From Daphnia carinata (Eukaryota; Arthropoda; Branchiopoda; Diplostraca; Daphniidae), in contig NC_081332.1 of the NCBI RefSeq assembly GCF_022539665.2, positions 4,789,803 through 4,853,802 of the forward strand: a stretch of 64,000 nucleotides of DNA, read 5' to 3'. Of this stretch, positions 3,001 to 57,746 are shown piece by piece. Each line of letters starts with the position of its first letter. Within the stretch, counting starts at the first letter, position 1. The translations under genes and the position numbers were made by a program. Below the pieces are notes generated by a model. The model did not search any database. It saw only the letters and a program-made list of their open reading frames with translations, and was not told the origin of the DNA.

Positions 3001-4481
3001 TGCATTATAGAAAAACCGGATGGCTGTTGCTATGATTCGCTGCCTAATCTGCAGCTGCGGGAGTTTCAGTTGACATATCAATCCCGTCTTTTACATTCCT
3101 CACATCCCCTATTCATGTTAATGAAATTTAATACTTTCCCTTTTTTTTTTTTTTTAAGGGACAAAGATCAAAGCTCAATTTGTGTCTGTTAAGAAAAGAA
3201 CACACATCTATTTTTGATTTTCGTTTTATTTGTTTCTCTACAACGACGGATGGCGTGTGAAGATTGTACAACACGTACCGGGATAACAAGTACGTCTACA
3301 TGCTAATGGAGGCCTGTCTGGGAGGCGAGCTGTGGACGATCCTGCGGGATCGCGGCCACTTTGACGATGCGGCAACGTGTTTCTACACGGCTTGCGTTAT
3401 TGAAGCCTTTGATTACTTGCATTCGCGCAACATCATTTACCGCGATCTCAAGCCCGAGAATCTTCTGCTAGACAGTCGCGGCTATGTCAAACTGGTTAGT
3501 CATTCGTTGTTGCCCTTCTCATTGTTTTTCGAGGAATGACAGTCATTTGCGAATGAATATTTTCTGCATTCACGGCCGTTTCAGGTGGATTTCGGCTTCT
3601 CGAAATTGTTGGGCGTAACCAGCAAGACGTGGACTTTCTGCGGGACTCCCGAGTACGTCGCACCTGAGATCATCCTCAACAAAGGTCACGATCGGGCTGT
3701 CGACTATTGGTCTTTGGGCATTCTCATCTTTGAATTGCTGACGGGAACGTGAGTCTACGCACGAATTCTTGTTTGTTTCTTTTTCTTAAAATGATGACAG
3801 ATTTACTGATGAATGAATTGAAAAAAAAAATAATAAATAAATAAAAAAAAAGGCCTCCGTTCACTTCTCCGGATCCCATGAAGACGTACAACATCATTCT
3901 CAAAGGCATCGACCAGATTGAATTCCCGCGTATCGTCAGCCGAGCAGCTCAAGCTTTGATCAAACGCCTGTGCCGCGAAGTGCCTGCCGAACGGCTCGGC
4001 TACCAGCGAGGCGGGATTGATGACATCAAGAAGCACAGGTCTCACGTTGTTTTTATTAATTACTTTTTTTTTCTTCTTGACAGTTATCCCCGTATTTTTT
4101 GCTTCATTGATTTTCATTAAATGCCTTTAATATCTCCCATTTTTCAGGTGGTTTCAAGTGTTCGACTGGGATGGCCTGTCTAATAGGACCTTGGCAGCAC
4201 CTATTACACCTGTGGTAAGTCCCTCTTTTCAGCAATGACATTCTCTTATGAAATCTCTTGATGAAAGCAATTGATTGTTCCGGCGTTTAACCAACGGCTC
4301 TTTTTTTTTTCTTTTGTGTTTCTTTGCTATCCATTTCTATCGGTCATTATCAAAACAAAACAAAACAAAAAAGGTGCGTGGCCCAGCTGATGCTTCCAAT
4401 TTTGACACCTACCCCAAAGAGAAGGAATTGCCGCCAGACGAGCTCTCTGGTTGGGATGTCGATTTCCAGTTGTGCAATTGA
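1..4481 (+). CDS. for: cGMP-dependent protein kinase (PKG / foraging type), 5' part missing
   Basis: Serine/threonine kinase activated by cGMP, cytosolic. Coding exons that keep frame across every junction are about 20-122, 1503-1641, 2448-2801, 3263-3494, 3585-3748, 3853-4038, 4148-4214 and 4374-4481. The first two give the second cyclic-nucleotide-binding domain (FIIASGRV, then [10 protein letters not shown]). The third has the linker and glycine loop ([11 protein letters not shown]) with the ATP lysine in FALKCLKK. The fourth has the catalytic loop ([10 protein letters not shown]), the fifth the DFG segment (DFGFSK) and activation segment ([12 protein letters not shown]). The C-terminal tail is typical of PKG (LSGWDVDF) and ends in TGA. 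The N-terminal dimerisation region and the first cyclic-nucleotide domain lie left of the window. A possible exon at about 515-562 is not needed: splicing 122 to 1503 gives the usual family spacing. The subtype (for or Pkg21D-like) is inferred. Confidence 0.95.
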
Positions 4482-5725
4482 GAGTTTGACAACATAAAAA
4501 ACTACACACACAAGTTCTCCAAAACTACACGTCACCGTACACACACACACGCGAATGCAGAAACACATAGACACACGACACACATACACAATGGTTCGAG
4601 CAAAAAGAAAGAAAAATGCAACTTTGTTTTTGGCCTAGGCGCGGAATTCGATTATTTTCGATCGCAGCACAACATCTAATTTCTCTTGCGTGAAAAAAAC
4701 GATTGGTATAATTCGGTTGTTTTCGTCTCTTTGGCATCTCGCCCTTCTTTTTTTCTAAAATTGTTTTTTTAAACACAGAAAATATGTAGATATTACTATT
4801 AATTAATTATTATCACATAAGCTGCTGAGAAAGGGAGAAAAAAAAAAGGAGTTTTGACACCACCGTTTGTTCCTCAAGTGCCTCTCCTTTTAATTCGCAT
4901 TATTATTAATATATTATAACACAACTTCTTTTTTTTTCTTTTTTTTTAACTGCTGTTGCTACAATACTGACGCTGCTCTTCTTTGTTGAGCTGTTATCAA
5001 CTTGTTTGTTGAAAATGATTCTTTTCCATCTTTCAACCACCCTACACGTTTTCAGCAGCGAGTAGAGCCGTAACTGGCGTATATTGAAACGGAAAAAAAA
5101 AAGACAAAAAAGAATTCCTACTTTTCAATGTGTGCGTATGTGTTTTCTTTTAGTTTCCACCACTTCTTCTCATTCATTTTTCCAATACTTCATCTTCACG
5201 GCAAAAGCAATCTTCTCCTCCTACTCCCCCCCTGGCCGCCCTACTATTCTTTCTGGGAAGGAAATGGGAAAAAAGAAATTTTTCTTCTTCGTCTAAACCA
5301 TAAATAATGTATACATGTTTGTGTACTCTTATTACACATTCACAATTTGCATACACTGGTGCGACCAGCATACCACATTTTTCATACCCACACACTTGCG
5401 GAAGAAAAAAGGAACGCGGACGCATACGGAGATCAGACACACCCATATCCTTTACAGAATAATAATGTACGAAATATTTTATACAACATACAATTTGATT
5501 CTCGGTTTCTTTTTTCTTCTTTCGTTTTTTGTTTTGATTTATTTTATTTTATTTTATTTTTTTTGGCTTCGCTTTATTTTTGGCTGTCCGTCTTCTCGCC
5601 TATTCACAATTGTATTATAGGTACCGAGTTTGTCACACCTTCTTTGTCACGTCGCCCTTCCGAATCTCAACGCTAAAGGGACGTGGAAATTCCCCAATGT
5701 ACAATACAGTACACACACAAGAAAA

Positions 5726-5762
<37 letters not shown>

Positions 5763-8654
5763 GCTTTTCTAGGATTTCTACGGGATTTATTTGTGCCTCT
5801 TCTGTATGACCCCGCCTTTCCATCCGCGTGTACACCGCACGATCTACATCGATCTTGTGACTCGTTATGCCGCGATACATCATGTTGTGAAAGATGAAAA
5901 GAAGAGGAAAGTGTGCGTATAGAGAGGCCTGTTGGAGATGTTGTTAGCGACGGGGAATCCGCAGATAATATTTTTTTTCTTCTTTTTTTTTTTTTTGCAG
6001 GAAAATGTATGGCACAGCAGCAACAATGACTTATGATGTCGAGTTGGCACAGTCCCATGCGGTGCGCGGTTGCGGTATATGTTAATGCAGTGTGCACCCT
6101 CCATCTCTTTTGGCCGTAGTTTACAAATGATGCAAAAAAAAAAAAATGGAAAACAAATTCTTAGAAAAATCGGTAGTCCAAGCCACGCACTGTCCTGGAG
6201 CTATCAAAGCCAAATTTCTTTTTTGCAATCCAAATTTTGTTTCGTTAAAACAAAAAAAAAAAAAAAAATTAAAACAAAAAAAAGTCTTTTGCGCATTGGC
6301 GTTCGATGTGTCGAACATACGACAACCTTTATATTCCGTCCATTTTGTGATAGCCCGATCGATATCCTTGTGTGCTGCTTGTACGTAGTAGACACACACT
6401 CACAGGCACTACAGAAAACGACGATTGCATTGTTAATAGGCGCCTCCTACTCCTAGCTCGACGTCCGCTCCCATCTTCAGCGCAACTATTTGCTGCTCCC
6501 GCTCTGTCGACTGTCCGTTGTCGTCTATTTCGTTTTTGCGTGTTTGGGCAATTTTGTTCCACAACTGGCTCGCTTAGATTCTGGCACGTGCAGACGTGTG
6601 TACCTTGTTACGTACCAACAACCAGTAAAAGAAAAAAAGAAGCAAAAATTCTCGTGTAAATATTTTCCCGACGACTTTCAAAATGTTCTTTTGCCACAGA
6701 TGCGTCGCCCAGAACGCATAAATCAACCGCGCTTTTTGTCAGGTTTTTTTCTTTCTCCCCAAAAATTCCGTTCAAGAATTTCCCCGTCTACTGGAACACA
6801 AAAGAAGGAGAAAATGAGCGGAGATGGAAAAAGAACGCAAACTGAAAGGGAATCGAACTTGCAATTCATTGACGTAGATATAGATGCTCTAGGCTGTTCA
6901 GTTACATATTCTTTCTTGTCAAAAAAAAAAAAAAAGAAATATATACGTAGACGTGCATTTCCCCCATTACTGTTCGCAACCGGTTTCCGATGACATTGTC
7001 TACGGATGTGACCCGGATAAAGAAGTTTATGTGCGCACGTTTATATTTCTCTAAGGTTTCATGTTTAGTGGAATAGATGATATGTTTGCTACGTTCTTGA
7101 CAGCACCTCTTCGTTTTGTTGTGTCATCCGCATCCAGCTGGATTTCCTGCCTCCGTGTTCACCGTTAAAGCTGGGCTTTTCCAGCCATCGGTATATTTTA
7201 ATTTATATATTTTTATGACGTTCTTGTTTTTCTTCAAGTTTTGATTCTTGTTTTTTTTTTTTTTTGTTTTTTGTTTTTCAGGCCGTACCTCCCAGCTAAA
7301 AGACTAAAAGGAAAAGGACTCTCAGAATATGTTTGTTCGCTACCTTTTTGACTGCTTGTTTGTTTGTTTTTTTGTATAAACATACATTATACAACAAAAC
7401 TCGGTTGAATAGTCAAGTATTGATTGGATGCCAAAAGGTAAGAGTTCCATAGGTATGCAGTAGAAAGTTGGGCTCCCATGTGGCATTGAATCCTACCCAT
7501 ACGTCTGCGTGAATTACTTTTCATCGATAAATTTTGAAGTTATTAGCAGATGGAAAATGGTGGCATTAGACGTCGGAGCGTCTCGGGATGTTAACGATTG
7601 AATTTCCAGCCATTTCACGACGGGCATTGGCTACATTTTGCAGCAACATTTCATTCATTGAAGACAGAAATCGATAAACTACTTTGAGCCCAGGCATAAC
7701 AGGGTAAGAGATTTATCGGATTATTCATTCCCTTTGCATATTTTATGCATTACATATAATTTTCTCGATGTCCATTTACAGGTGAATGGTTGCTTTAGAC
7801 TTTGTCAAGTTTGATGTGGTTGCCAATAATCTTCGGTTAAGTGAACAAAGAGATTGCAGTAACATACCTGGGGAAAAAAAAGACGTGCCCCTACGCTAAA
7901 TTGGTTTCTGTTATGTGAACGTAGACATTGCCGAAATGGCTGACAGTTTCGTTCATAACCCCTTCCCCTGTCTCCCCTCTCCCCAATCCAACCGAATGGC
8001 ATCATATAATTAAATTACTTAAACTTGCTGTTCTTGATGATTCGTGCGCGAGTATTTATAGATATGCCAGAGTAACAGATAGCCATTTTTCTTTCATAAT
8101 CCAATCGGTAAATGTTATTCTCAAAAGTTTTCCGGGTACTAATGAAAGCCAGCATCTCTTGTCTATGGAATTCTAGGAGGAAGAAAAAAAAAGGCTGTAT
8201 TTATATCATTGATCGTGAAGAGAGTGGAAGAAAAAGAAGTGGAAATAAAGCATTTCTTCCATCACCGGATCGATGATCGATTTCTTCATTCTGTGATGAT
8301 GACAAGAGCCGGATGTGCTGCAGATGCCAGAGGATTAATAATGAGCAACGTGGTTTTGTGCACTTCGATAATGGCGGTAAAAAAGATGTACATCCCTGTC
8401 ATAATTTCCGACTGCTAACAGGATCAACCGTATGCTATTATCAGGGCAAAGTCCCAAACATTTCCGCAGCTCAAATGTGTCTGGTTCAATCGGTTCGAGT
8501 GATTCTAAACTGCCAGGCCTTTTCTTGGTACCGATACAATTTCAACGAACATTGGGATTGGGTACCCGAGAAGCTGAAAACGCCCCACTTTGACTTGCAA
8601 TAGGTTTCGGGAGTGTCGATCGATTTGCCCACTTCACAGGCAAGTGCTTTTCAG
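4482..8654. other. PKG 3' flank: AT-rich, low-complexity DNA without a recognisable gene
   Basis: After the PKG stop there are about 4 kb of poly-A and poly-T runs, CA-rich stretches near 4530-4600 and a GA microsatellite near 5730-5760. Open frames here are low-complexity and resemble no protein I know. Some of it is probably PKG 3' UTR, but I could not fix a polyadenylation site. Confidence 0.5.
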
Positions 8655-24325: not shown

Positions 24326-27300
24326 TTATTTCATGGCCATTTTTTTCATGGCCAAGTTTTTAAGCTTGGGTTTGACTCCCTTTAGACGAGCAATTTTGAC
24401 TTTTTTGGCTACCCTCTTAGCGAAATGCTTTTTAATGCGTAATTGGGCCGCCTTCTCCGGACGCGTGACGCTATCCGCTTTGCGTATAGCCTGTCTGTCA
24501 CGTCGACGTACAGCCAAAATTCTGTTAGCGGCCACCACGGCTTCACTGTAGACTTCGGTACCAACCAACCCTAAAATTTTAAATCAAATTCAAAGATCGG
24601 TAAACACATGATAGTATATCGGTAAACCAAGAAAATATACCTTTGATAAGTTCTGAAACTTCTTGAGCTAGATCCTTAACCTCTTTCGGAGACCCGTCAT
24701 CGTTAATATCACGCGTTAAAGGCGAAACAAAAAATTTCAGGACATTTGCAAGACCTTCTTTTCCAGCAACTTGATTCAAGTCGACAGCAACAGCTGCCAT
24801 CCACTTGAATACAGCAAGACGCTAAAACAAATAACTAGTTCAGAACAGGGTTCTTAAAAATTGATGACAACAAAAATGTTACCTTTGTGGGAGTTGTGGG
24901 ATGAAGTACTACTTCGGCATTGATTTCTCTTCTCAATTTGCCCGTCAACCATGGAAGCGAAGGTGCCTTGATTTTTGTGTCCTCTTCAGCATCATCAGCT
25001 GGAATCCGATTTGCGACTTTGCCAATAAAAACCAAGTTCTTGATGACTTGATCAGCCAACTGATTGTCCAACAAATCGGATTGAAGTTGGGTTACCAAAT
25101 CCCTCGCAAGCGAACGAAGTCGTTTGGATATTTCGCCACATAACAAATAACTACGAGTCACTTTTTCCGTGGATGATGTAATGTAGGTCGTAATGTAGGT
25201 CGCTAGCTCATCAGGCTTGTGCCATCCCAATAAAGTTCCTACAAGTCGCGAGCTTAGAGTGCGAATCCAAAGATGTGGGTGTACCAGGTGATGGATAATC
25301 TTTCCCCACATTTGCTCGGCTACGTCAATGTTTTCTTCACTTTGCAAGCCAGTAGCGCAGTGTTGCGTCATTTTGATTATGGTATAAAATGTCTGTATAA
25401 GCAATAAATCCGCCTCACGGTCCTCTCTACCGTCCGAATCGCTGTGTGTTTGGTCCAATAACTTAACTATATCCGGCAGGACTTCCTTCAATCGGAATTC
25501 AAAAGTAGATTTTTCAGCTGCTACGAAAATTCCGCAAAGCTGAACAGCCAAGCGTTTGTGCGAGGCATTGTTTCCCCTTAGCCAAGTAAGGCACATCTGT
25601 TGTAAACAAAATATAATTAATATAGAAATGCAACAATATAAAAAACAACGAATAAAGATAAGTTAATACTTCAAAAAGTGTCGTGGCTGTTGGTGTGTTG
25701 AGCCTCTCAATCAGAATTCGAATCGCAGCAGCCATAGCTTTCACACAACTAGTTGATGTTTCATTGATCAAGTATGGGCTCATTGTCACCAAAAATAAGG
25801 TACTCTGCTGGCTGAGGAAATTTTTCGGAAAGGTATTGAAAAGGGAGACAAGAAACTCGATGGCAGACAGTCTCCCGGATTCTTTCTCGTAGTCCAGTTG
25901 CTTCAGGAAAAACTGCACATAGCGTAACAATTTTTTGCCCAAAGGATAGTCCACCATGTACTGCAAAACAACCTGTAAAACAAAACACACAATAATAATA
26001 TAAACTATAAGAACATGGTGTGGTCAAATACTAGTGACAAGTCAAACCGAAGGCGAGTTTGACCCAGAAATGAGACTGTAATTTGCCATTTTAATATACC
26101 ACTCTTGCCAGCAACTAAGCTTCTTAGCGAGCGTAATCGCCTGAATTCGTGGAACACTCAGGAATGAAACAATTATATAAGACACTTACTTTACGACTTT
26201 GTACACGAACAGGAACGGCTTCTGCTTTAATGCTGAGCTCGGCAACTCGCATCATCACATCGGGCAGTTCGTCTAGCGTTAGTTTTCTCTTCACTATAGC
26301 CTTCAAAACACCGAACGCAATTGACTGTTGTTTTGGATCGAACAACGCCTGTTCGGAATACACTAGCAAGACCCGCAGCTGCTCTGTATCTATAGCGTGG
26401 TTTGTCACATGGCGGACCAATATGGAGATGGCCTAATTGAAACATGTTCCATTAAAATCAATTAATGATTGCTCGATTAAGAGAAGGATACCGCTAATTG
26501 TTAAAATAGATTTGTACTAGATCAAATCAACATCCAATTTGATCCAGATATTACAATGCTATTTTGATTTTATTTACCACTCTTGCCAGCGATTAAGCTT
26601 CTTAGCGAGCGTAATCGCCTGAATTCGTGGAATGTCAATTTTAATATGGTTACAGGTAATGAGACAACATACCTTGAAAGCAGTTTGCACCATTTCCAAA
26701 TTTTCTCCGGCAGTACTACCAGAGTACTTGTGTAGAAGGGCGAAAACTGCTGTAGATATCTTGGATGCGTACTCCGTTATGCTGGGGAGCGGGACCCGAA
26801 GTAACGTGCAAATACATCTCAACGACAACGCTACCAACTATTTTTCAAATAAAACCCTTAGTTAGGAATCTGACTACGTTTTGCTTTAAGTTTTACCTTG
26901 GAATGAGGATCGGTTAAGTTGTTATAAATTATTGGCAAAATAGGATCTAGCATCGGAATCACACTCGTGCTTGCATTTTCGTGGCATTTTTCACGTTTTA
27001 AAATAAGGCTGAAGATGAGCAGACCGAATTCTACCACTATGTGGCTATTGATGATATAGGCCGATTTGGAAGCTCCAGTAACGGATGGTAAAGCCGCGGC
27101 AGCCACCTTTCTCTTAGGAGCAGGTGCCAGTATTAAAGAGTCCGTTCTCATGGGCCGGCCAGAAGCAGTCACATTTGGATCCTCTTGGACACGGGGTGCC
27201 GGTAATCGCAATTCGGGTATAGATAAAGATATCACACCGTGAACGAAAATTAACAACGGCGCGATTGACAGGCCAGAATTAGCAGCGAGTCCTAATGCGA

Positions 27301-30300
27301 CATTGTGCAGACATTCCTCAACTTTTCGAGTCATTTTGAAGGATTTTGTCGAAGCTAAGATCTAGAAAAGACATGTTATTAATATGCTTGTCTAGAAAAA
27401 GTCGGACACTGCCTTACCTCTTTGAAAGGCACTACCAGTCGGAGAAGATACGACTGAGAAACATGTTTTGCAATGATCTGCAGCGTATTGAAAGCTTTTA
27501 TTCCTTTGGCTTCTTTCAATTTGTTAACGATCTTTTCAACTTCTTTTTCATCTGCAGTGTCCCCGTAGAGTTCTTTTTTACAGAGCTGCAAACAGCAAAA
27601 TAAAGTTAATATTTTGTTCATTACTTAGGACAAAAGTTGGACTTTAAATTGTTGATAAAATACCTCAACAAGCGGATAAACAACGCCATCAAGTGACCCA
27701 TGTTTCAATTGACCTATTTCGCCCAACTTGGCCAATAGCGCATGCATAGTGAAGATGTAAACATGGACTTGATAACCCCGTTGAAGAAGAGGATTCGCGG
27801 CTTCCATAAGCGCACCCAGGTGTTCGGGACCAAGAGAAATTACCATCTCAATCAACGTATTACGAGCAGTTTCACGTACGCTGTTACAGCGCGACTTCAA
27901 GAAAGTGCAAACTTTCGAAAACATTCTATCAAAAGACAAAACTTATATAAGTATTTTTATGAACATCAACATTTAACAATGGCTAATATCATTTGTTACC
28001 CTGGTAAACTACGCTCCAAGGTTCCTGGTGGAAGATTCTTCAGAAGATTAACGAGGGCCAATGCAATGGGAACACGCAAGATTTCGTCATCTTCCGGGTA
28101 ATGATCCTTTACTGCTTTGTGCTGCTTGTCTCGATTGGTGCGTGCCGTGAGAATGGCATTAAGTTCAGGAAGCAGTTGCTGTGCAATCACCGAATGAATT
28201 TTGGTTGCCATAGTGCCATCAAGTAAAGGTATTTCCTCTTCTTCAGGTGCCATTTCCGGAAGTTCAGAGCTAGGTTCTTGTTGATCAATGACTTCAGCAT
28301 CAATGGTAGGCGTGCCATCTTCAACAGGAGCGGCAACGGATGACTCTTCCAAGGTTTCTTCTGTGTCTGCGACAATAGGCACATCTGCTTTCGTTTCAGC
28401 TGTTTTAGCAGCTATTGCTTTTGCAGCATAGTAGGATTTAAACTTCGAATGTTTCAAATCAAAGTGAAATGCGTTCAAAATAGCAACTACGGCTTTGACA
28501 GCCTGTTTCTGGTATTCAATTTGGCGCGTCATGTTGGACAAATAGAAGCGAAGAAGTTTCTCGTAATTGTGCCAAGAAAGGCAACGAGCAATGGCCTGTA
28601 GACTTTCAAGTGCAGCATCTATCAAGTGGTTATGTTTGGCATATTCTTCGTTAAACAGATAACAAGTTGCCAACGGTAAAAGATATTGAGTGATTGTTTC
28701 GCCATTGATGGAAGTCTTATCTGCTTTTAGAACACCGGTTAACCTGGAAGGGAAGGAAGAGGGAAGTTGAAGATGTTTAAAAAGGAATAGCTTATTTTTA
28801 TTTACTAGGAACATTTTTTAAATTTATACCTGAGTAAAGCACGTGAGCGTCGATGCGTTTGTAAGTGCCGACAGTTTTCGAAGAAATCTACTTCAACATC
28901 TCCCTCTTTTCTAAGTTTCCGTAGGCTATTGAGGGACGCATTCATTGCGCTGCAATTGGACACGGCCTTACTAAGGATTGAGATTCCCTCGTGCCTCACA
29001 GTTTCAATGGAAGAGCGGACCAGTAATCGTAATTGCGGGATAAAATGTTCATTCAGCATAATTTTTCCATACTTCAAACGGCTGAAGGTAGCTGTCATAA
29101 TTTGGAGAGTCAATGAAGCATTGTCTCTTAAAGAAGAATCATTTTCCTGTAAAAAGAGATGGAATTGTAAGTGAGATGCTTAAAATAAAAAGAAATATAT
29201 AACATAAAAATTGAATTGTTTGCAACGTAACAATATTGTAATTCCAAAAACTTGGATACATTGATTATGAAACGATGCAATTAATATACCACTAATGCCA
29301 GCGATCACACTGCGGAACGAGTAGTAACTGCCTGAATTTCGTGGTGCCCAAAATATTGGTTAAAAGTAGACCACTTACCGTTCTCACGAAGTTGAACGAA
29401 TTATACAATGCCAGGGCGGTCCACTCGAAAGAGGGAGTACCAGACTCTAGCGTAATGTTGATTTCTTTATGAGTGTGCAGACGATGGGTGTAGTCGGGTT
29501 CTTCGAGACGTTGAGGGTCCCACTTGTTCATCGAGGACACCAGTTGGCCGAGAGGCCCTTGAGAAGGATCTCGTTCACAAATCACTTCCAAAACTCTACA
29601 CAAACCCTGCCGAACATTTCTTCCTTCGATGGTACCAAAAAGCGTAGCTAATGGGCTGTAAAAAAAAAATTTATGTAAACGCAAATGATAATTAAGTAAT
29701 AAGTAAAAGTTTGCCTTACCTAATGAATTCATGTGGGTTGACGGCATTTTGTACTAAATTAGCCAAAGTGCTGAGGTAATGTATAAGTTTTTCTTCGAGG
29801 TTTGCACTTTTGCGGTTGCGAAACACGGCCACTTTGATCGCTGGAATAATCATGCGAGCCAGTTCAGTGCTCAACTGAGCTTCTTTGACGTATTCGGATA
29901 CACGCATCAGGACATTCAAGTCTCTTCCATTCAATCCTTGCGTGATAAACTTGCGTAAATATGTGAGAACAGATGACAAGTGCGGGATAAGAAGTGTCGA
30001 CCCATAATTGACTCTGCTTTCACTTCCAACATCATCTACCAGCATCGCATCCTTCGACCAATCCCACTCGACCGAAAAGTTTGGCTTTATATAGATAGGC
30101 TCTTCTTTTTCTTCGTCGTCTTCTTCACCAACCGTGCCATAATCTGCTGTTGTGACCAATTTGTCGACAATGTCCATAACAAACGAGCAAACGGAAGTCA
30201 CTGCCTTTCCACTGGCAAGTAAAGCCAGCAACGGTTGCAACACGGAAAGCTCTGGGCGATCCGGGTGAGCTTTGCCAAACAGGACAAAGAACCTGGTCAA

Positions 30301-33300
30301 CACAAGGGTAATTTTAAAATGCAATAGATAAATAAATAGACAAACAAATAAGAAAATTAATAAATCAAGAAAGAAATACTAACCTCGAATTTTCAGACCA
30401 AACTTGAAATAAACGAAGCATCGGAGTAGTACCGGAATAAGCTTGATCGGATAACATTTCAAGTTGAGGCCAAATATAGACGTGAAAGACTGCTTCAATT
30501 TCTTCTGGTGTCCAAGGATAACGCTCGAACTTTTTGAAGAACTGTGTGATTCGTTGCCAGCCAATTGTTCGCAAGTTCTTTAACTGGCCAATGTGCTTCG
30601 GTTCTACTTCGTTTCGTTTAGCAAGCAAACCCATAACATGGGCACTGATATTCAAGAGCATGTGTAGAAGTTTTGGCAATGTAGATTTCATAATATTTCC
30701 AAGTTTGGAGAAAATGGTACCCATAAGGACCAACGCTCCTTGGATTCTCTTGAGAGGTAGCGCAAGTTTTGGGTCAGCTTCCCGCATCATTCGCACTACA
30801 TGCTGATCGATACCTTCGGTTTTTGTAAAGTCGCTGAATAGTTGAAACGCCAAGTCAAGAAAGACATCGATTTCCGAATCGGCAAGACCAGCAATGTAGC
30901 GAAGAATGACAGCTTGTCGAAACTGGATATTATCTTTACCAGACGATCCAGACCCCGCCTTGAACATCATTTTTCCATACAGTATTCTGATAAGAATCGA
31001 TGTCAAACCCGCTCGATGTTCCAGCTTGATGGATGAACTGAGAGTATCGATCGAAAAAGCTGTGATTTCAGTACGAAATGACTTGTCATCAAGCAGGCGA
31101 TATAAATTTTCCTTGTAGGGCGTTAAGTACGGGTATCCATATGCCATCAGGCAATCGAGAGCTTGTTTTTGGATGTCACCGAAACGATGGGAAAGGAGAC
31201 GGAGCAAAATTTTCGTCACTTCGGGCTCACGTGTCATTTTTTGAGGTTGCTGAAAAGACGCCAAAACCGAGAGATAGGAAGACAACAGTTTCATTATGTT
31301 TCCTTTTTCTCCCTTTGTTGATTCCACCTTGACATCAGTGGTAAGGTTTTGCGTCTGTGCGATGTTTCCGTCATTGACACAATATTCAGTGTTCCAAAAA
31401 TTTAGAAACAAAGGGACGATGACGTTGTGCTCTTTTTCAGTTACGCTTCCGATTCGCGAGAGTCCAGACCACGCTAAAGAACGGGTGTTGGTAAAATCAA
31501 TCCGCTCGACATCGACTGTTAGTTTCAAGTATTCCATTTCTGCCGACGGATCACGAATTTCTTCTGCTTCGCATAGGCGAACGTTTTCCAAGAAAGGCAG
31601 GTATACTGACCAAAACTTGGACGATTCCATGCTGAAAGCATGTGACTCGATGAGCTTGAGGACCGGTTCCCACAATGGTCGGAAGTTGATGTAAAGTTGA
31701 CTTAGCAAATATTGCAAGGGAGCTTTTGCAAAGTGCCCACCAACGGGAAGACTGTGAATTACACGTTCAGCTTCTAGATTTTGCAGATGTACTAATTTCT
31801 CTCTTTGCTCACGGACACCCGCAGGAATCAGCTCCGCATTCAGACAAATTTGGAAAATCGGTGTTGGATTCACATTTTCTGGTGGGGCCGGCATTGGCGG
31901 CGAAAAAAGCGACAATATGTGAAGAGTCAGCAATCTAACCTGTAATGTAAGTGTATGCTTTTAGAAATAAGAACTTTAATAACTGGGAAATTGTTTTCTT
32001 TTACCTCGTGATAGGGAGATCCAAGATTTTGTCCAATTACATCATAGATCTCACAGAGGACTTCCAATGAGAACGTGTTTTGATTATCTATTTCGTGAAG
32101 ACTTGTCAGATAAAAATCTGCTGCACGTAGATAAAATATGCTAGTGGACATGGTATCATTGAGGAATGCCGATCGGATCATCGTCCAGGGGACATCTTTT
32201 TCTAGGTCCGACGAAAAATGTCGAACACCTAAGATGGCAAGACTCAATACCAGTCCCAGTCTTTCGGAATAATCCACTAGGCAGGTAACTTTGGCACGTT
32301 TCGTTTGTGGTTCTTCAGGATTTGCTTCCACTATATTCGCAACCTCTTTGATTATTTTCGTTAGGATTCTTGTAGCTTTCGCGGAATCCATGGGTCGGAG
32401 ATTAGGCAGACAAACAAGCGCATTTATGTACGTTTGAAAATCTTCGTTCACCATTTTTTCCACTTTACTCTCTAGAATTGACTGGACGAGATCAGGAACA
32501 CTTTTGGCGTCCGATGCTTTTCTCATTGCGAAGGTGAATTCGAGGGGATAGATTTTGAAGTTGCTCATATCATATCCGCTTTTAGGAAGTGAGCCTTTAA
32601 TGGAGACGAGACTTGCCAGATTTTTCAACATGAGCGAACGTGTGCCCTGATCTTTCTTGCAAAGGGCATGGCAATACGAGATGTAATGTGGGAGCACATG
32701 GGATTCAAAAAATCCGTGAGAAGACACTTGTAGAGTAAAATCCAGGACAGTATCAGGTTTCCAGTGGTAAGTGTAGGCCAATTGACCAAGTTTCGATGTT
32801 TGTTCAATCGGCAATCTGACTTTGGCCGATTGCATGAGTGCGGCAACCGTCGCCGACACGCTTTTTTGCTCATCTCCTTCCAAGCCTTCTTCACTTAAAA
32901 GAGAGGCGAGTGTTTTTGATAGCGTAAGCGAGTCCGTGACAAGTTCACCCTCCTTGAATTCCACCCACTGTTGAAACAGAAGTAGTAATCCTAAAATTCC
33001 TGGTCTGTTTGATGACTTGATGGCTTCCTAAAACCCAAAACATAATGATAAACTATGATTTGCAGAATGCTGAAACTATTTTTGTGTTTTACCAGCAGAA
33101 TGTTCCAGACTCTAGCACAATGCAACTGGGAGGTGTGCCTTGCCATCAGGATAAAGCAAAGATTTACAGCATTGAAGACTGGATCATCAGAAACATTTTC
33201 TTTAATGCAGCTGATAGATTTCAAGTAAATGGGCAGAAAAATTTCCAGTGAAGTGTGGAACTGATTCTTGACGCCCTTGACAATTTGGAACAAAAGCTGG

Positions 33301-34177
33301 CCCACTCCCTGACTGTCTCCTGCATTTTCCCTTAGCTTTCTGAAAATCAATTCCACAAAACCAGTGTGGTCTCCAACTTTCCGTCCAATAAATGCAAAGC
33401 TTTCTGTGGCAAACTGTTGAACATGATCTGGTTGTGTGGATGCCAGGAGGGGAAGAAGAAGTCCATACACATTGTCAATGTCTTTAACTAACAACCGCCA
33501 CAAGTTTTTGTATAAATAAGCTAAGGTAGTAAAAGTCCATTCAGTTATATCAGGGTCTCTTGTTTGAAGAAGGCCAACTAACTTAAGGAAAAACTCTGGG
33601 AACTTTGGGTAAAAATCTGACTGCAGATCCTTTGCAACAGCAACCACCAATCTACAATTAGACAATAAACATTTAACCTACATCTTAACATGAAATTTCT
33701 TTAAATATATACTCTAGTATGGGCTCCAAAAATAGCTGATTTTCTTTGTCAATGTGCTCCAAAAGCAAGTTTATAACTTTTTCTTCATGTAGAAGCAGTT
33801 GACCCAAGCTTTGAATGTCTCTCCCAAGCCTCCTACAAAAGATGGTAAAGCCTTCTGTGCAGTTAAGGTCTGCCCATTTCTCCAATGCCTCGTAAAAGAA
33901 GGTCTCTGTCTCATCTGGAATAGCATTCCTTTTGAGGTTAATTCGGTGAATGACATCAACGTTCACAGAAGAGAGCCGCTCAGCAAAGGTTTTGAACTAT
34001 GAAAAAAAAAAACTGGTGTTACAAAATAACAATTTGCTTTTGCTCTGTGCCTAGTTGTAAATTAATGCCACACAGCATTCATCAGGTTAGAGTAATCTGT
34101 ATCTTTAAATGATATAACTTTTATCTTACCTTGAAAGTATTTTCGTCCTTGTGTTTAGTTGGCTTAGTTTTCACCAT
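24326..34177 (-). CDS. UTP20: UTP20 / DRIM, HEAT-repeat subunit of the small-subunit processome
   Basis: Very large nucleolar scaffold of HEAT repeats needed for processing of 18S pre-rRNA. Starts MVKTKPTKHKD at 34177 and ends in a very basic tail (RIKKHFAKRVAKKVKIAR) at 24326. About 18 exons give roughly 2,700 aa, close to the usual size. Recognisable parts: RLVVAVAKDLQSDFYPKFPEF and WTFTTLAYLYKNLWRLLVKD near the N terminus; RFYLSNMTRQIEYQKQAVKA and PGTLERSLPG in the middle; and VQYMVDYPLGKKL-type sequence (YMVDYPLGKKLLRYVQFFL) late. An acidic, low-complexity insertion (ETKADVPIVADTEE through APEEEEIPLLDG) lies at about 28230-28400. Most introns are about 60-130 bp. Three are over 200 bp (25973-26189, 26433-26672, 29147-29378), and each contains an H/ACA snoRNA candidate. 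The final exons were assigned by frame and local similarity, so exact boundaries may be off by a few bases. Confidence 0.93.
26016..26155 (-). ncRNA. Candidate box H/ACA snoRNA A, in a UTP20 intron
   Basis: Lies in the 217-bp intron 25973-26189, about 34 nt from the donor and 43 nt from the acceptor. Hairpin 1: outer stem CCAC/GTGG, an 8-by-8 internal loop (GAATTCAG and TGGCAAGA), then inner stem GCGATTA/TAGTTGC. Hinge ATATTA at 26092-26097 fits box H (ANANNA). Hairpin 2: lower stem GG-CAAAT/ATTTG-CC with single bulges, and upper stem GTCAAAC/GTTTGAC closed by an 8-9 nt loop. It ends ACA followed by three bases (CCA) at 26016. The total of about 140 nt is normal for the class. Target unknown. 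Confidence 0.78.
26496..26634 (-). ncRNA. Candidate box H/ACA snoRNA B, in a UTP20 intron
   Basis: Lies in the 240-bp intron 26433-26672, about 38 nt from the donor and 63 nt from the acceptor. Hairpin 1 is nearly identical to candidate A, with inner stem GCGATTA/TAATCGC fully paired. Box H is AAATAA at 26570-26575. Hairpin 2 has a different sequence but a clear fold: lower stem AAAATAG/CTATTTT and upper stem GATCAAAT/ATTTGATC. It ends ACA plus ATT at 26496. The changes in the hairpin 1 stem between A and B keep pairing by G-U or Watson-Crick pairs. Confidence 0.8.
29214..29346 (-). ncRNA. Candidate box H/ACA snoRNA C, in a UTP20 intron
   Basis: Lies in the 232-bp intron 29147-29378, about 32 nt from the donor and 67 nt from the acceptor. 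Hairpin 1 keeps the outer stem ACCAC/GTGGT, the pocket bases TTCAG and TGGCA next to the inner stem, and a mostly paired inner stem GCAGTTAC/GTGATCGC despite many changes from A and B. Box H is ATATTA at 29282-29287. Hairpin 2: lower stem TTGCAtCGT/ACGtTGCAA with one T-T mismatch, upper stem TCCAA/TTGGA with a 4-nt loop. It ends ACA plus ATT at 29214. Confidence 0.78.
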
Positions 34178-44958: not shown

Positions 44959-47833
44959 GGCGGTGTAGATGCTTCCATCGTCAATATGCCCGCCTCCTTT
45001 GCACGCAATGCGGGATAACAGGTGAACAGTTGTGCAGTTTTGCTTTACCTGTGTGTGTACAACCCACGTATAGACACACACCTTTGCTCTCTCTCTTACT
45101 GATGATGTGTTGCCCGTCTTTCTCCTTGTTCTCACCCAACTCCCCCACCAAAACAGACGATATCTAAAGGGCGCAATTGTCCACGGCTTGTTGGCCTTTC
45201 CCTTTCTCTTCTTGCTAACGTGGAGTGTCTTCCCCGCCCAACTTATGGCAGTTACTCGATCTATTTTTTGTGTGTGTGTGTGTGCAACGTCTAACGTCTC
45301 TAACTGGCCTGTAACACTAACGGCAGGTATTCCAATGTGCGTGTTCGAACAATGAATAGGAAACAAAATGAATTCGGGCGAGAAAGTTTTTCAAATCGTC
45401 CCTCTAACTATCACGATCAAAGAAGAAGAAAAAAAAAATATGGGGCACGCCCCAATAAAAAATGTTGATTTTCTTTACCTTCCAATTTTAATTTGATCCG
45501 TATAGAAGCTACTATAACTCTACAGCAATCAATTGAAAAGCTCCATATAAATGCTGTGGGAAATACAATGGCATAAAACACTGGACGCATTTCGTGACTA
45601 AAGTCAACGGCCTTTTCAGTGGAAAATTGGTCCATCCAGTGGTTATGTTTGTAAACAATATTCACGTTTCTCAGCAAAAGCATATAAAAATAAAGAAAGA
45701 GGTTTTTTTTTTTTTAAACAAGAACAACTTTCCCCCGTGAGTGGTGCAGCTTGATTTGGTGCAATCAACCACACGGATATACGTAATCTGGTTAAGATTT
45801 GTGTCTGATGTGATGATGGCGGTACGCTATTTGTATATCAACGGCTTACGTGCATATGCGAACGAAGATAGATTGTCACACGCGATACGTTTACAATTGG
45901 AAAGCCACTGATGTGAGGAATTCTTTTGGATTTTTTCATCCCTCAATGCGATCACGCGTTCGCGTGATTTCGTGTAACTCGCGGAGATTTTCATCAAGGC
46001 CGATGACATCTTCGTTGACATTAAAAGACGGGTGACGCTTGTAAGATTAGAAGCTACTTCATTTATTCAAAGCATATGACGCAATTGAGGACACTGATTA
46101 ATACTTATCTTTCCATCGTCTCTTATTAAGAAGAAATTCATTTTTTGGGAGGGAGATTTCAACTTAAAAGCGTCTCGACACACCTAGAAAAAAAAGGTCA
46201 AAAAAACTAAAATTTCTCAACAGAAAAAAGTCGTGATATTCCGGAGGAGAAATGGAAAGTGGATACATCTCTCTCTCTCTCTCTCTCTCCCCTTCGTTCC
46301 TTTTTTTTTATTACAAAAACATGAAAACAAAAAAAAATATGACGTGCTGTAGCAAAATTTTGAGAGTGCACGTCTTAGTGGGCCTGGCTAAAATGAACGA
46401 TTCTCGGAGCTAAAAGGGCGTGGTCATGAAAATAAGATTTCCCCATCCGCTACCCGGTTAGTTTCGCATGACCCACATATCATCGTGTATATACACAATT
46501 TTCTTTGCACAGAAAGAGGACCATCAGATGAAGTGATAATGTAACGATATAAATATAAACCGGTTGGGTTTGCCCCCCTTTTTTGCGGGATCCCGAAAGC
46601 ACGCTATCGAAAAAAAAAACATACAAACATAACGAGACACGAGTTGCCCGTATCGATGTGTAGTTTGTGTATATCAAACATGCGCACGAGTGAAAAGTGT
46701 TTCCCTGTTTCCTGGGTGATATAGCTTTACTCATTAGAAAGTAGCCTATATATTTTTCAAAAAACCTTTTTAAAAATAAAAAGGAGAAAAACAACCGAAA
46801 AAAACGAATTTTGCTATTTGATTTATTCAACTCTTTCCTCATGCCCTTTTAAGGCCACACATTTTTATCCGCCTCCGTTTTAAAAACCCGGCTAGTCAAT
46901 TAGGAGTTCATAGACCTCCCAATGCGTGTTACTATTTAAGTGAATTAGATTACATCGCATCTAATTATCTATCACGTCCTACCTTATTTCTTCTTAGAAC
47001 TCTTTTCAAAAAAGATGGGGTCAGGTAAAAAAGAGACAGCTTTCGTCCCTGTTTACGTCGATCGTACCATCTTCATGGGGGAAAGGGTAAGCAAAAGAAA
47101 CAAAAATTTTCCAAAATATGACGTAATTACCGAAACCTTGGAAAGTGATAGTCAATTGTTTTTTTTGCGGCTTCCTTAGAAAAAGCCTATTAAACTCTCA
47201 CTCTCTCTGGCCCCTATTCATAGTAGAGTCGAACAAAAGATTTAATAACAATCAAAGAAGCACATTAAGCCCCAAAAAAAAAGAAATAAATACGAAAACC
47301 ACATCAACATTAGACCCCACCCACGTCTGCATGAATAACAAAATTCTTATGGGGCCGCTGATGCTCGCACGGCGGAACAGAAGCATCACGACCATAGCCG
47401 ATTACATCAACCTTGGCGGTTATAACAATGCGCGGTTTAACAAAAACTTTTCGCTTTCGTCATATCAACATTTTCTCTCTGTCGTCATTGTAGAGCAACA
47501 GGTTCTGTTTTTCGAGGTGTCTTCTGATGGCCGACTAACCGCATTCATTTTGAACCCCCCCCCTTCTCTTTAATTTTGTTTTTAACTGAATACAATTCTG
47601 AATAGGTGCGTAGTGTATTTTGTTAAAAGTCTACTTCAACAACAAAAACAATGAAACAATAACAATTTCTGCAGCGATTCAAATTGCGTCAACGCAAAGT
47701 GAATGCCGATTATACGAAAAATTCTATATAAGTATGTAAAGTATGGAACTGAGAGTTCACAAAAAAAAAAAAAATCTTAATAACTGCATAAGTTATTGAG
47801 GTCCAAATTCGGTCGATCTATTTTTCCTTTCGT
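44959..47833. other. Spacer between two cuticle genes
   Basis: Contains TG/CA-rich runs (near 45265), a CT microsatellite near 46270 and homopolymers. One exon-like open segment lies at 47015-47086 (+): ATG, 24 codons starting MGSGKKETAF, then a good donor (AGG|GTAAGC). I could not find a partner exon, so it is not called as a gene. Confidence 0.4.
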
Positions 47834-52915: not shown

Positions 52916-53407
52916 ATGAAGGTAAACATTTTTTTGAAAGTGTGCGACACATTGCCCAGGAAAAAAAACAAAACACATTTCTGTTTTTAAACAAGGTGCT
53001 CCTCATTTGCGCTGTTGGATGCTGGATGATGTCTTCGGTGGTATCGATGCCAGTAGCTCAGAAATCATCCCTCGATCATTTAATTATCCCCTACGAGAAT
53101 TCACCAGTTGATTACGGCGTGTTCTCATCTGATCAAGGCTCACAATATCAAGACGAACCGACAGTAAGTATTGATCGTTTAACAACGAAATATTATTGAT
53201 GTTATTGTTTGTTTGAATTCGTAGGTGATCACCACCTACAATGTAGGCACGTTCAGACAAGGTGATTTCTTGACAGTGCCTCTTGGTGCTTCGTACACAG
53301 TTGGAGGTCCCGATCATCAGAATCGTTTGAAGAAAGGGATCGTCGTTGGAACCAAGCGTTTCTCGCTGACTAACACCGCTGGCTATCGACCTGGCATTGT
53401 TTTGTAA
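52916..53407 (+). CDS. Small secreted protein, possibly cuticular, family not recognised
   Basis: Exons 52916-52921 (only ATG AAG), 52996-53163 and 53225-53407 give 118 aa in frame. The second exon supplies a signal peptide (VLLICAVGCWMMSSVVSMPVA) with likely cleavage near SMP-VA. The mature part has few cysteines and includes YNVGTFRQGDFLTVPL and KRFSLTNTAGYRPGIVL. The TATA box, 6-nt first coding exon and position beside cuticle genes suggest an epidermal, cuticle-related role, but there is no Rebers-Riddiford motif, so this is inference. Confidence 0.75.
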
Positions 53408-55384: not shown

Positions 55385-57746
55385 AGAAACTCAACCGCCA
55401 TCAGTTGCACAAGGATCCATTGCCACTGGAAATTCGGGACTTGGCAATCCTTCCGGAGACGATAATCCAAAAGAAATGGGCGGACTACGTAACCGGTTAT
55501 TATGCCGTTTCGTTAGCTCGACGTGCTTCCAGATGAACCGGCGCAAAAAATTGGGAGAAAATCTTATGGAAACACCTTTGCGAAGATGTCTGTCAACTTT
55601 AGACATAACAATGCTCGGTATACCCGTTATAAAACTATAGGCGTTTAGTTTCAAATTAAGCCCGACAATCATCCTCAGGTATTGGACATATGGTCGGAGC
55701 CGGTATTTATGTCTTGACTGGTACCGTGGCTCATAGTATGGCCGGTCCGGCCATTATTTTGAGCTTTCTCATAGCCGGTTTCGCTTCCGTTTTGGCCGCT
55801 TTGTGCTACGCCGAATTCGGTAGCCGGGTACCAAAGGCCGGTTCTGCTTATGTTTACACTTATGTCACAATCGGAGAATTCTGGGCGTTTGTCATCGGCT
55901 GGAACATACTTCTAGAGCATATGATAGGTAATTCAAGATCAGGTTTATATTATATTAATACATTTCATTACGTGAACGGGTTATGTACAGGTGCGGCTTC
56001 AGTGGCCAGAGCATGGAGTGGCTACGTGGATGCGTTAGCTGGAGGAGTAATCGCTAATGCAACCGCCGGAGTTTTCGGTGAAATTCACAACGACATGATG
56101 GCCAAAACACCAGATTTCTTAGCCTTTGCAGTTTGTCTGGCTTATTGCGGGTTATCTACTTTGGGAGTCAAAGGCTCTTCCTACTTTAACAGCTTCTTCA
56201 CTATGGTACGATTAATTCACGTTTTTAATCTTTTATTACATTTTAAAAAATGGTTTATCACTTTGGCAGATAAACATTGCGGTCGTTGTCTTTGTCAGTG
56301 GATTCGGTTTCTATTGGGCTGATTACCACAACTGGACTGATTACGGTGGGTTCACGCCCTTTGGGTTCTCGGGCATCTTAAGCGGGGCGGCTACCTGTTT
56401 CTACGCGTACGTGGGGTTCGACAGCATCGCCACCTCGGGAGAAGAGGCTCGTGACCCAAGTTTCTCTATCCCGGTGGCAACTTTCGTTTCGATGAGCGTC
56501 GTTTCGGTGGGTTACATGTGCGTTTCGGCTGCTCTCACGCTGATGGTGCCCTATACGCTCATCAACCCGACGGCTGCTTTACCTGACGCTTTCGCCTCTC
56601 ACGGCATCACCTGGGCTCGAATCATCATCAGCGTCGGTGCGCTGGCCGGCATGACGACCACACTTTTCGGATCCCTGTTTTCTCTTCCACGTGGAGTCTA
56701 CTCCATGGCGCAAGACGGTCTCCTCTTTAAAGTATTCGCCAAAGTCAGTGAGAAGACCCAAGTGCCGCTCGTCACTATTGGCGTCTGCGGCTTCTTGAGC
56801 GCCCTTGTGGCCCTTTTCTTCGATATTGAAAAATTGGTCGAGTTCATGTCGATTGGCACTCTTATGGCCTACACGATTGTTTCGGCAGCTGTTATTATCC
56901 TACGCTATCGCCCGCTTGTCAACAAATCTGATGTACTCCCGTTAACGGAGAGCCCAACGTCACCTGGAAGTGCCAAGGATTTTGTCGATGTTTGTTTAAA
57001 TTAACTTTGGTGTGTGTCTGCGGCATGAATGATTATTTGATTTTGTGATAGATGTTGAATGAAGCAGGACGATTGAAGCCGAAATTCTACTGGATTGAAA
57101 GAATTATTGGCAGCTATGAACCGGGTGTTCTTCCAGCCACTTGTGTCTTTATTTTCACCGTCAGCTGCGCGTGCATTTTCGCTATTCTTCAATGGGGAGG
57201 AAGGGCCGTCTACCATCCAAACGGTCCAGAATGGTGGCTGGCTGTATTACTAACTTTCCTCGTTGCAGTTTCTCTCATTAGTGAGTCCATCACGGTTGCA
57301 TTGTTTTTATCTTATTTATCGCTAATTTTTCTTTGTTGGTCTTCAATTAATTATTTAGCACTAGTCCTTATTGCTGTTCACAATCAGTCGACCGAAGGTT
57401 TACGATTCAAAGTTCCTTGGGTTCCGACTCTTCCGGCTCTATCCATCGCAGCTAATGTCGCTCTTATGGTGAATTTAAATCCGATGACGTGGGTTCGTTT
57501 CGCCATTTGGATGTCTATAGGTATGTGCATAACATTGCTATACATCTGGATCCCGTGAAATGATGATCAAAATGATGTGTAGGTTTTGTGATTTACTTTG
57601 CTTACGGAATGCGTCACAGCAAGGAAAACGCCACAGTCAGCTCTTACTCTGGCTTACTGAAATCCAACTCGCGTACGGGCGAGTGGGGTTCCACTCTGAC
57701 GGCCAAGGATCTTCCTAGTACACCTTCCTCTCAAACAGAAAATTAA
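55385..57746 (+). CDS. Cationic amino acid transporter (SLC7A / CAT family)
   Basis: Plasma-membrane transporter of arginine, lysine and ornithine. Seven exons keep frame: 55385-55617, 55679-55927, 55991-56205, 56270-56989, 57052-57280, 57359-57520 and 57583-57746, giving about 656 aa. Family signatures: TPLRRCLSTLDITMLG before the first helix, then GHMVGAGIYVLTGTVA, YAEFGSRVPKAGSAYVYTY, GEFWAFVIGWNILLEHMIG, YVGFDSIATSGEEARDPS and FSLPRGVYSMAQDGLLF. The last part (FKVPWVPTLPALSIAANV) is the CAT-type C-terminal domain. The true start is unclear. 55385 follows an acceptor in phase 2, so a short upstream exon (perhaps at about 55250) or a later Met (MNRRKKLGE) supplies it. Converges on Rpt1, with 195 bp between stop codons. 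Confidence 0.93.

Follow-up and report, generated by a model that had tools for sequence, protein, structure and literature searches.

The stretch of DNA which we have studied, called the window in what follows, has 64,000 nucleotides (nt) and comes from Daphnia carinata (contig NC_081332.1, positions 4,789,803 to 4,853,802); all coordinates below are those of the window. On its minus strand, from 34177 to 24326, there is a gene which, judging from its Pfam matches, is UTP20. Separate exons of this gene match UTP20_N (1.6e-81) and UTP20_C (3.5e-14); the family UTP20 also matches a host exon, but at a value (0.00023) which is under its cut-off. Three introns of the gene each contain a unit which we interpret as a probable small nucleolar RNA (snoRNA) of the box H/ACA type. 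We have named these intronic units U1, U2 and U3; they are distinct from the spliceosomal small nuclear RNAs (snRNAs). The gene, the three introns and the units have the following positions:

24326..34177, minus strand: host gene UTP20, assigned by Pfam matches on separate exons; its ends, a start and a stop codon, were located by eye
25973..26189, minus strand: intron hosting unit U1, 217 bp, GT-AG
26433..26672, minus strand: intron hosting unit U2, 240 bp, GT-AG
29147..29378, minus strand: intron hosting unit U3, 232 bp, GT-AG
26016..26155, minus strand: unit U1, predicted box H/ACA snoRNA, 140 nt; from fold, descriptor scan and boxes
26496..26634, minus strand: unit U2, predicted box H/ACA snoRNA, 139 nt; from fold, descriptor scan and boxes
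29214..29346, minus strand: unit U3, predicted box H/ACA snoRNA, 133 nt; from fold, descriptor scan and boxes

In UTP20 we delimited 17 introns by their GT-AG ends, from starting positions read by eye. They differ in size: those which bear a unit measure 217, 240 and 232 bp, the other 14 have 56–133 bp. Each of the three introns above 133 bp has one unit in the sense orientation. The distance from the donor to the unit is 34 nt for U1, 38 nt for U2 and 32 nt for U3, and 43, 63 and 67 nt separate the end of the unit from the acceptor. When the unit is subtracted, 77, 101 and 99 nt of intron are left, a size comparable with the neighbouring introns.

The organization is the same in the three units: a hairpin, box H, a second hairpin and an ACA followed by 3 nt. 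The hinge hexamers ATATTA, AAATAA and ATATTA all match ANANNA. The ACA is found after hairpin 2 in every unit and marks the 3' end of the RNA as predicted from the DNA. In hairpin 1 an internal loop separates a short lower stem from the upper stem. Two of its blocks, AATTCAGGC on the left side and GCTGGCA on the right side, are invariant in the three units and extend over the loop and the lowest part of the upper stem; we call them guide blocks. The first base of GCTGGCA always lies 15 nt upstream of box H; the distance from target to box in eukaryotes is stated as 15–16 nt (PMC7991803). These elements are found as follows:

26092..26097, minus strand: box H of unit U1, ATATTA
26570..26575, minus strand: box H of unit U2, AAATAA
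29282..29287, minus strand: box H of unit U3, ATATTA
26016..26021, minus strand: ACA + 3 nt of unit U1, ACACCA
26496..26501, minus strand: ACA + 3 nt of unit U2, ACAATT
29214..29219, minus strand: ACA + 3 nt of unit U3, ACAATT
26106..26147, minus strand: guide blocks of unit U1 and intervening stem; AATTCAGGC at 26147-26139, GCTGGCA at 26112-26106
26584..26625, minus strand: guide blocks of unit U2 and intervening stem; AATTCAGGC at 26625-26617, GCTGGCA at 26590-26584
29296..29338, minus strand: guide blocks of unit U3 and intervening stem; AATTCAGGC at 29338-29330, GCTGGCA at 29302-29296

An earlier note on this DNA had described a ribosome-biogenesis gene, UTP20, with three introns over 200 bp, each with one unit of about 133–140 nt in the same orientation and 30–40 nt past the donor. 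It had also described in each unit a box H, a second hairpin and an ACA with exactly three more bases. The Pfam matches, the intron sizes and the positions given above agree with this description in all three units.

Hairpin 1 is identical in 55 of 58 positions between U1 and U2, in 41 of 57 between U1 and U3 and in 45 of 57 between U2 and U3; none of 200 shuffles was as good in any of these pairs. In the region from box H to ACA + 3 nt the real comparison is equalled by 0, 5 and 6 of 200 shuffles, in the same order. By their sequence the three units are paralogs. The intron sequence which flanks them is not specially alike. A homology between the upstream flanks of U2 and U3 (0 of 200 shuffles as good) was dropped, since this pair has only rank 9 among 136 intron pairs. 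Each of the five other comparisons of flanks was equalled by 11 to 173 of 200 shuffles.

The upper stem of hairpin 1 has 8 pairs. Changes in it affect one side only; in U3 seven of the pairs persist and one is replaced by A x C. A single two-sided change is found higher up in this hairpin (columns 26/39 of the MAFFT-based consensus). The apical stem of hairpin 2 can be aligned in all three units, U3 in a register which was adjusted by hand and includes a 2-nt bulge, and has 2 (U1–U2), 3 (U1–U3) and 2 (U2–U3) two-sided changes; the probability that all pairs are kept under equally many random substitutions is 0.0016, 0.00065 and 0.0035, respectively. From the unadjusted MAFFT alignment RNAalifold predicts 26 pairs, four of them with two-sided changes, three of these in hairpin 2. 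The homology of hairpin 1 in all units had been claimed in the earlier note and it stands. The additional claim that changes in this hairpin keep its pairing is only partly true: the change at columns 26/39 and the 7 pairs of U3 speak for it, the one-sided changes of the upper stem and the A x C against it. Hairpin 2 was said to be diverged yet foldable; it is foldable, but the description falls short, as its apical stem aligns with two-sided changes.

The z-score of the fold is −4.76 for U2 and −2.46 for U3, with 0 and 3 of 200 shuffles as good. We also scanned both strands of the window with an H/ACA descriptor, which requires two hairpins whose distances from ANANNA and ACA are fixed, and a pocket in hairpin 1. 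The scan is not blind, because the descriptor was drawn up after the units had been folded. All three units fit it and occupy ranks 1–3, at −39.7, −33.1 and −29.9 kcal/mol, followed by loci at −28.6 and −28.3; U3 has the lowest score of the three. In 12 dinucleotide-shuffled windows we found 76 loci, one of them at −29.9 or below and none at −33 or below. U3 barely clears the noise on this score; it is secured by its homology to U1 and U2. The two loci which come next are H/ACA-like folds on the plus strand, extending from box H to the 3' end, in positions 53190–53278 (−28.6 kcal/mol) and 45575–45660 (−28.3 kcal/mol). They are within the shuffled range and are probably due to chance.

Further copies were searched for in the assembly of the same species, which consists of 106 contigs and has 108,149,354 bases in total. 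With no mismatches allowed, the pattern AATTCAGGC-N24..34-GCTGGCA has three matches in the whole assembly, all of them in UTP20, and its reversed control has none; the pattern derives from the units themselves, so that diverged copies would escape it. DNA searches of the assembly gave U2 and U1 when U2 was the query, and only U3 when U3 was the query: no copy appears outside UTP20, although such searches can overlook diverged copies. A covariance model of the three units, scanned over the window, finds the three units and two weaker antisense matches on U1 and U2, with no additional copy. The core pattern of hairpin 1 has no match in viral contigs.

The confinement of the guide-block pair to UTP20, the fitting features and the paralogy make a guide family expanded within one gene the best reading, as the earlier note had proposed. 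The units are most probably three intron-encoded box H/ACA snoRNAs, paralogs duplicated within one host gene, with a common guide core. From these data we infer the direction of duplication, as well as processing, protein binding and modification as set out here, and the guide role is suggested by the anatomy. The units would be released from the UTP20 introns after splicing, shielded by the core of dyskerin, Nop10, Gar1 and Nhp2 and trimmed to ACA + 3 nt. The 5' hairpin, with its bipartite guide AAUUCAGGC + GCUGGCA, would direct the pseudouridylation of one common uridine, most likely in ribosomal RNA (rRNA); a site matching this guide would resemble UGCCAGC-UN-GCCUGAAUU. The sequence of the 3' hairpin has drifted, with an apical stem which remains paired, so that this hairpin may be mainly structural, or it may guide different sites.

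Several observations speak against this interpretation. The fold of U1 has a z-score of only −1.41, with 18 of 200 shuffles as good, so that the two-hairpin fold of this unit, expected in the earlier note, is unremarkable when it is taken alone. In the minimum-energy fold the pocket of hairpin 1 starts at TGGCA, 13 nt from box H and not 15–16 nt; the fit to the latter distance therefore presumes that a few pairs of the upper stem would open on target binding. In the RNAalifold consensus 7 of the 26 pairs are disrupted or fall on a gap in one of the sequences, and the covariation term is small (−0.32); the apical stem of U3 depends on a register fitted by hand. No Rfam family reaches the gathering level in the window, and at E up to 10 the region 25500–29700 has only one chance microRNA match. 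A family search of the Infernal type had been suggested as a check in the earlier note: it gives no Rfam match. Finally, the evidence consists of genomic sequence from one species.

The target search also counts on this side as far as hairpin 1 is concerned. A guide of this class is expected to form at least 8 pairs with its target, 3 or more of them on each side. On the rRNA of the species itself (18S, 5.8S and a piece of 2.1 kb which contains the 5' part of 28S) 23 pockets were tried, each with 50 shuffled guides; the 18S match has 2296 bases (positions 3928-6223 of record L018, contig C53), a length which fits a daphniid. Fifteen registers of hairpin 1 were at chance on these sequences, 5 to 36 of 50 shuffles being as good. 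In the U2, U4 and U5 snRNAs of the species nothing notable was found, the best hairpin-1 score being 7.0, a value without shuffle control; one U5 snRNA copy (L038) is in the opposite sense and its matches were discounted. The 3' part of 28S, which is the part richest in pseudouridines, was not found in the assembly by motif search. The target scan covers neither this part nor the U1, U6 and minor snRNAs, so that rRNA may still contain the target.

The best match of any pocket is found in hairpin 2 of unit U1, with U542 of the own 18S (4+8 pairs; 1 of 50 shuffles as good and, on retesting, 14 of 1500), a pairing which lies 16 nt upstream of the ACA as counted by eye. Two more pockets of hairpin 2 reach 1 of 50 shuffles: in unit U1 another register pairs with U155 of 18S, and unit U3 pairs with the 28S piece at position 1432. 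These matches are leads and none of them is significant, because 23 pockets were tried and U542 has no support from units U2 and U3. An equivalence of U542 with human pseudouridine 572 (PMC10164566) was dropped: the site falls about 16 nt upstream, counting back from A590 in the human sequence. Guide scans were also run on contaminant eukaryotic ribosomal DNA (rDNA). The best joint match of one of them, position 1361 of the 18S in record L004 (joint score 35.5, 0 of 60 shuffles as good), was rejected: it requires the opening of four pairs of the upper stem, on the own 18S it is outside the two best sites per pocket, and its register is at chance (7, 9 and 21 of 50).

Other explanations have to be compared with a family of rRNA-modifying guides. 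The units might be H/ACA-class RNAs which do not modify rRNA: orphan guides, small Cajal-body RNAs (scaRNAs) which act on snRNAs, or a pre-rRNA processing RNA similar to U17/snR30. The lack of an above-chance target of hairpin 1 in the own 18S, 5.8S and 5' part of 28S agrees with this possibility, and a host which belongs to the small-subunit (SSU) processome makes the processing role attractive; U17/snR30 shares with the units the H/ACA class and the link to the small subunit, which in the units exists only through the host gene. However, the CAB box which defines scaRNAs (UGAG in the terminal loop) is absent, TGAG being found in none of the units, and there is no notable match in the own U2, U4 and U5 snRNAs. 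The motifs of U17/snR30 in the 3' pocket, m1 (AUAUUCCU) and m2 (AAACCAU), are not intact either: in U1, U2 and U3 the best m1 has 3, 3 and 2 mismatches and the best m2 has 3, 2 and 1, and the near-m2 of U3 overlaps the ACA tail. The units are also shorter, 133–140 nt against at least 203 nt in Table 1 of PMC7601244 (one entry is given there as >140). We regard such a role as unlikely.

It also seems rather unlikely that U2, which has the best fold, is the active unit and that U1 and U3 are relics in partial decay. U3 has indeed diverged more, its upper stem contains an A x C and its descriptor score is the lowest, and U1 folds only slightly better than its shuffles; but boxes, ACA + 3 nt and guide blocks are intact in all three, and the apical stem of hairpin 2 remains paired despite its substitutions. 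A last alternative is that there are no RNA genes at all, but three copies of a short repeat or of a mobile element with inverted repeats, present in introns by chance. Such an origin would account for units which are repeated and rich in hairpins. It is almost certainly wrong: 108 Mb contain only three occurrences of the exact guide-block pair, all in a single gene and in one orientation, the DNA searches with U2 and U3 (which may miss diverged copies) give no copy outside UTP20, and neither two-sided changes nor an H/ACA layout would be expected of a mobile element.

Read as H/ACA guides, the units resemble the intronic box H/ACA snoRNAs of animals, present as one per intron, in having two hairpins, ANANNA, ACA + 3 nt and a pocket-like loop in hairpin 1, and in their sense position in introns of a ribosome-biogenesis gene. 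They differ from the known ones in that they match no Rfam family and are known here as genomic sequence. Cis-duplication is known to give rise to snoRNA paralogs which occupy different introns of a single host (PMC2653536), and paralogs sharing a host gene are documented (PMC2653536, PMC8178906); like them, our units are several copies in separate introns of one gene with flanks which are not specially alike. A difference with the paralogs of these two papers, as far as they are described there, is that all three detected units are in one gene. In Drosophila S2 cells 95% of the expressed snoRNAs are intronic and many are clustered (PMC13228274). The Drosophila gene mfl/Nop60B is, like UTP20, a ribosome-biogenesis gene with repeated small RNAs, one per intron, but these are C/D or C/D-like, and the single H/ACA RNA described in that cluster (H1) is not repeated (PMC1821038).

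Among the literature matches listed, judged by their titles, there is no account of snoRNAs in UTP20 introns nor of intronic snoRNAs in Daphnia or crustaceans. The units are very probably copies of one guide RNA; the trio is new, and the type of snoRNA is already well known. It would represent a compact case of guide and scaffold halves of H/ACA RNAs under different constraints: hairpin 1 is near-constant in two units (U1 and U2), while hairpin 2 drifts via paired changes. If a target is found, a guide RNA would be added for an arthropod lineage for which our literature search found no snoRNA catalogue; otherwise this is ordinary snoRNA biology. A more specific proposal, which we consider tentative and on the unlikely side, is that of a lineage-restricted H/ACA guide, absent from Rfam, of which three copies would be maintained, all of them inside the SSU-processome gene UTP20. 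Its conserved 5' guide would modify a uridine which in other animals is left unmodified or is served by an unrelated guide, and the supply of guide would be tied to UTP20 transcription.

Some features of the sequences used as targets are also worth describing. The records L001–L004 are named as bacterial (three metagenome-assembled genomes and Planomonospora parontospora JCM 3093), but they contain eukaryotic 5.8S, accompanied in three of these records by 18S or 28S: their eukaryotic rRNA is contamination. Contig C53 (records L017 and L018) has two rDNA units with a run of 5000 N between them, and the second 28S reaches the end of the contig at 57500. Matches to snRNAs (here those of the spliceosome) in the assembly are at least 31 for U2, 30 for U4 and 25 for U5, of which at least 28, 30 and 22 are on contig C5. 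In this contig, positions 8877500-8887499 (L041) contain a tandem array whose unit measures about 4.74 kb, two units in 10 kb. Each array unit has signal recognition particle RNA (on the opposite strand), the RNAs U3, U2 and U1, 5S rRNA, a transfer RNA, U4 and U5. Many further copies are found near 5.95–6.0, 8.84–8.94 and 9.3–9.5 Mb of the same contig.

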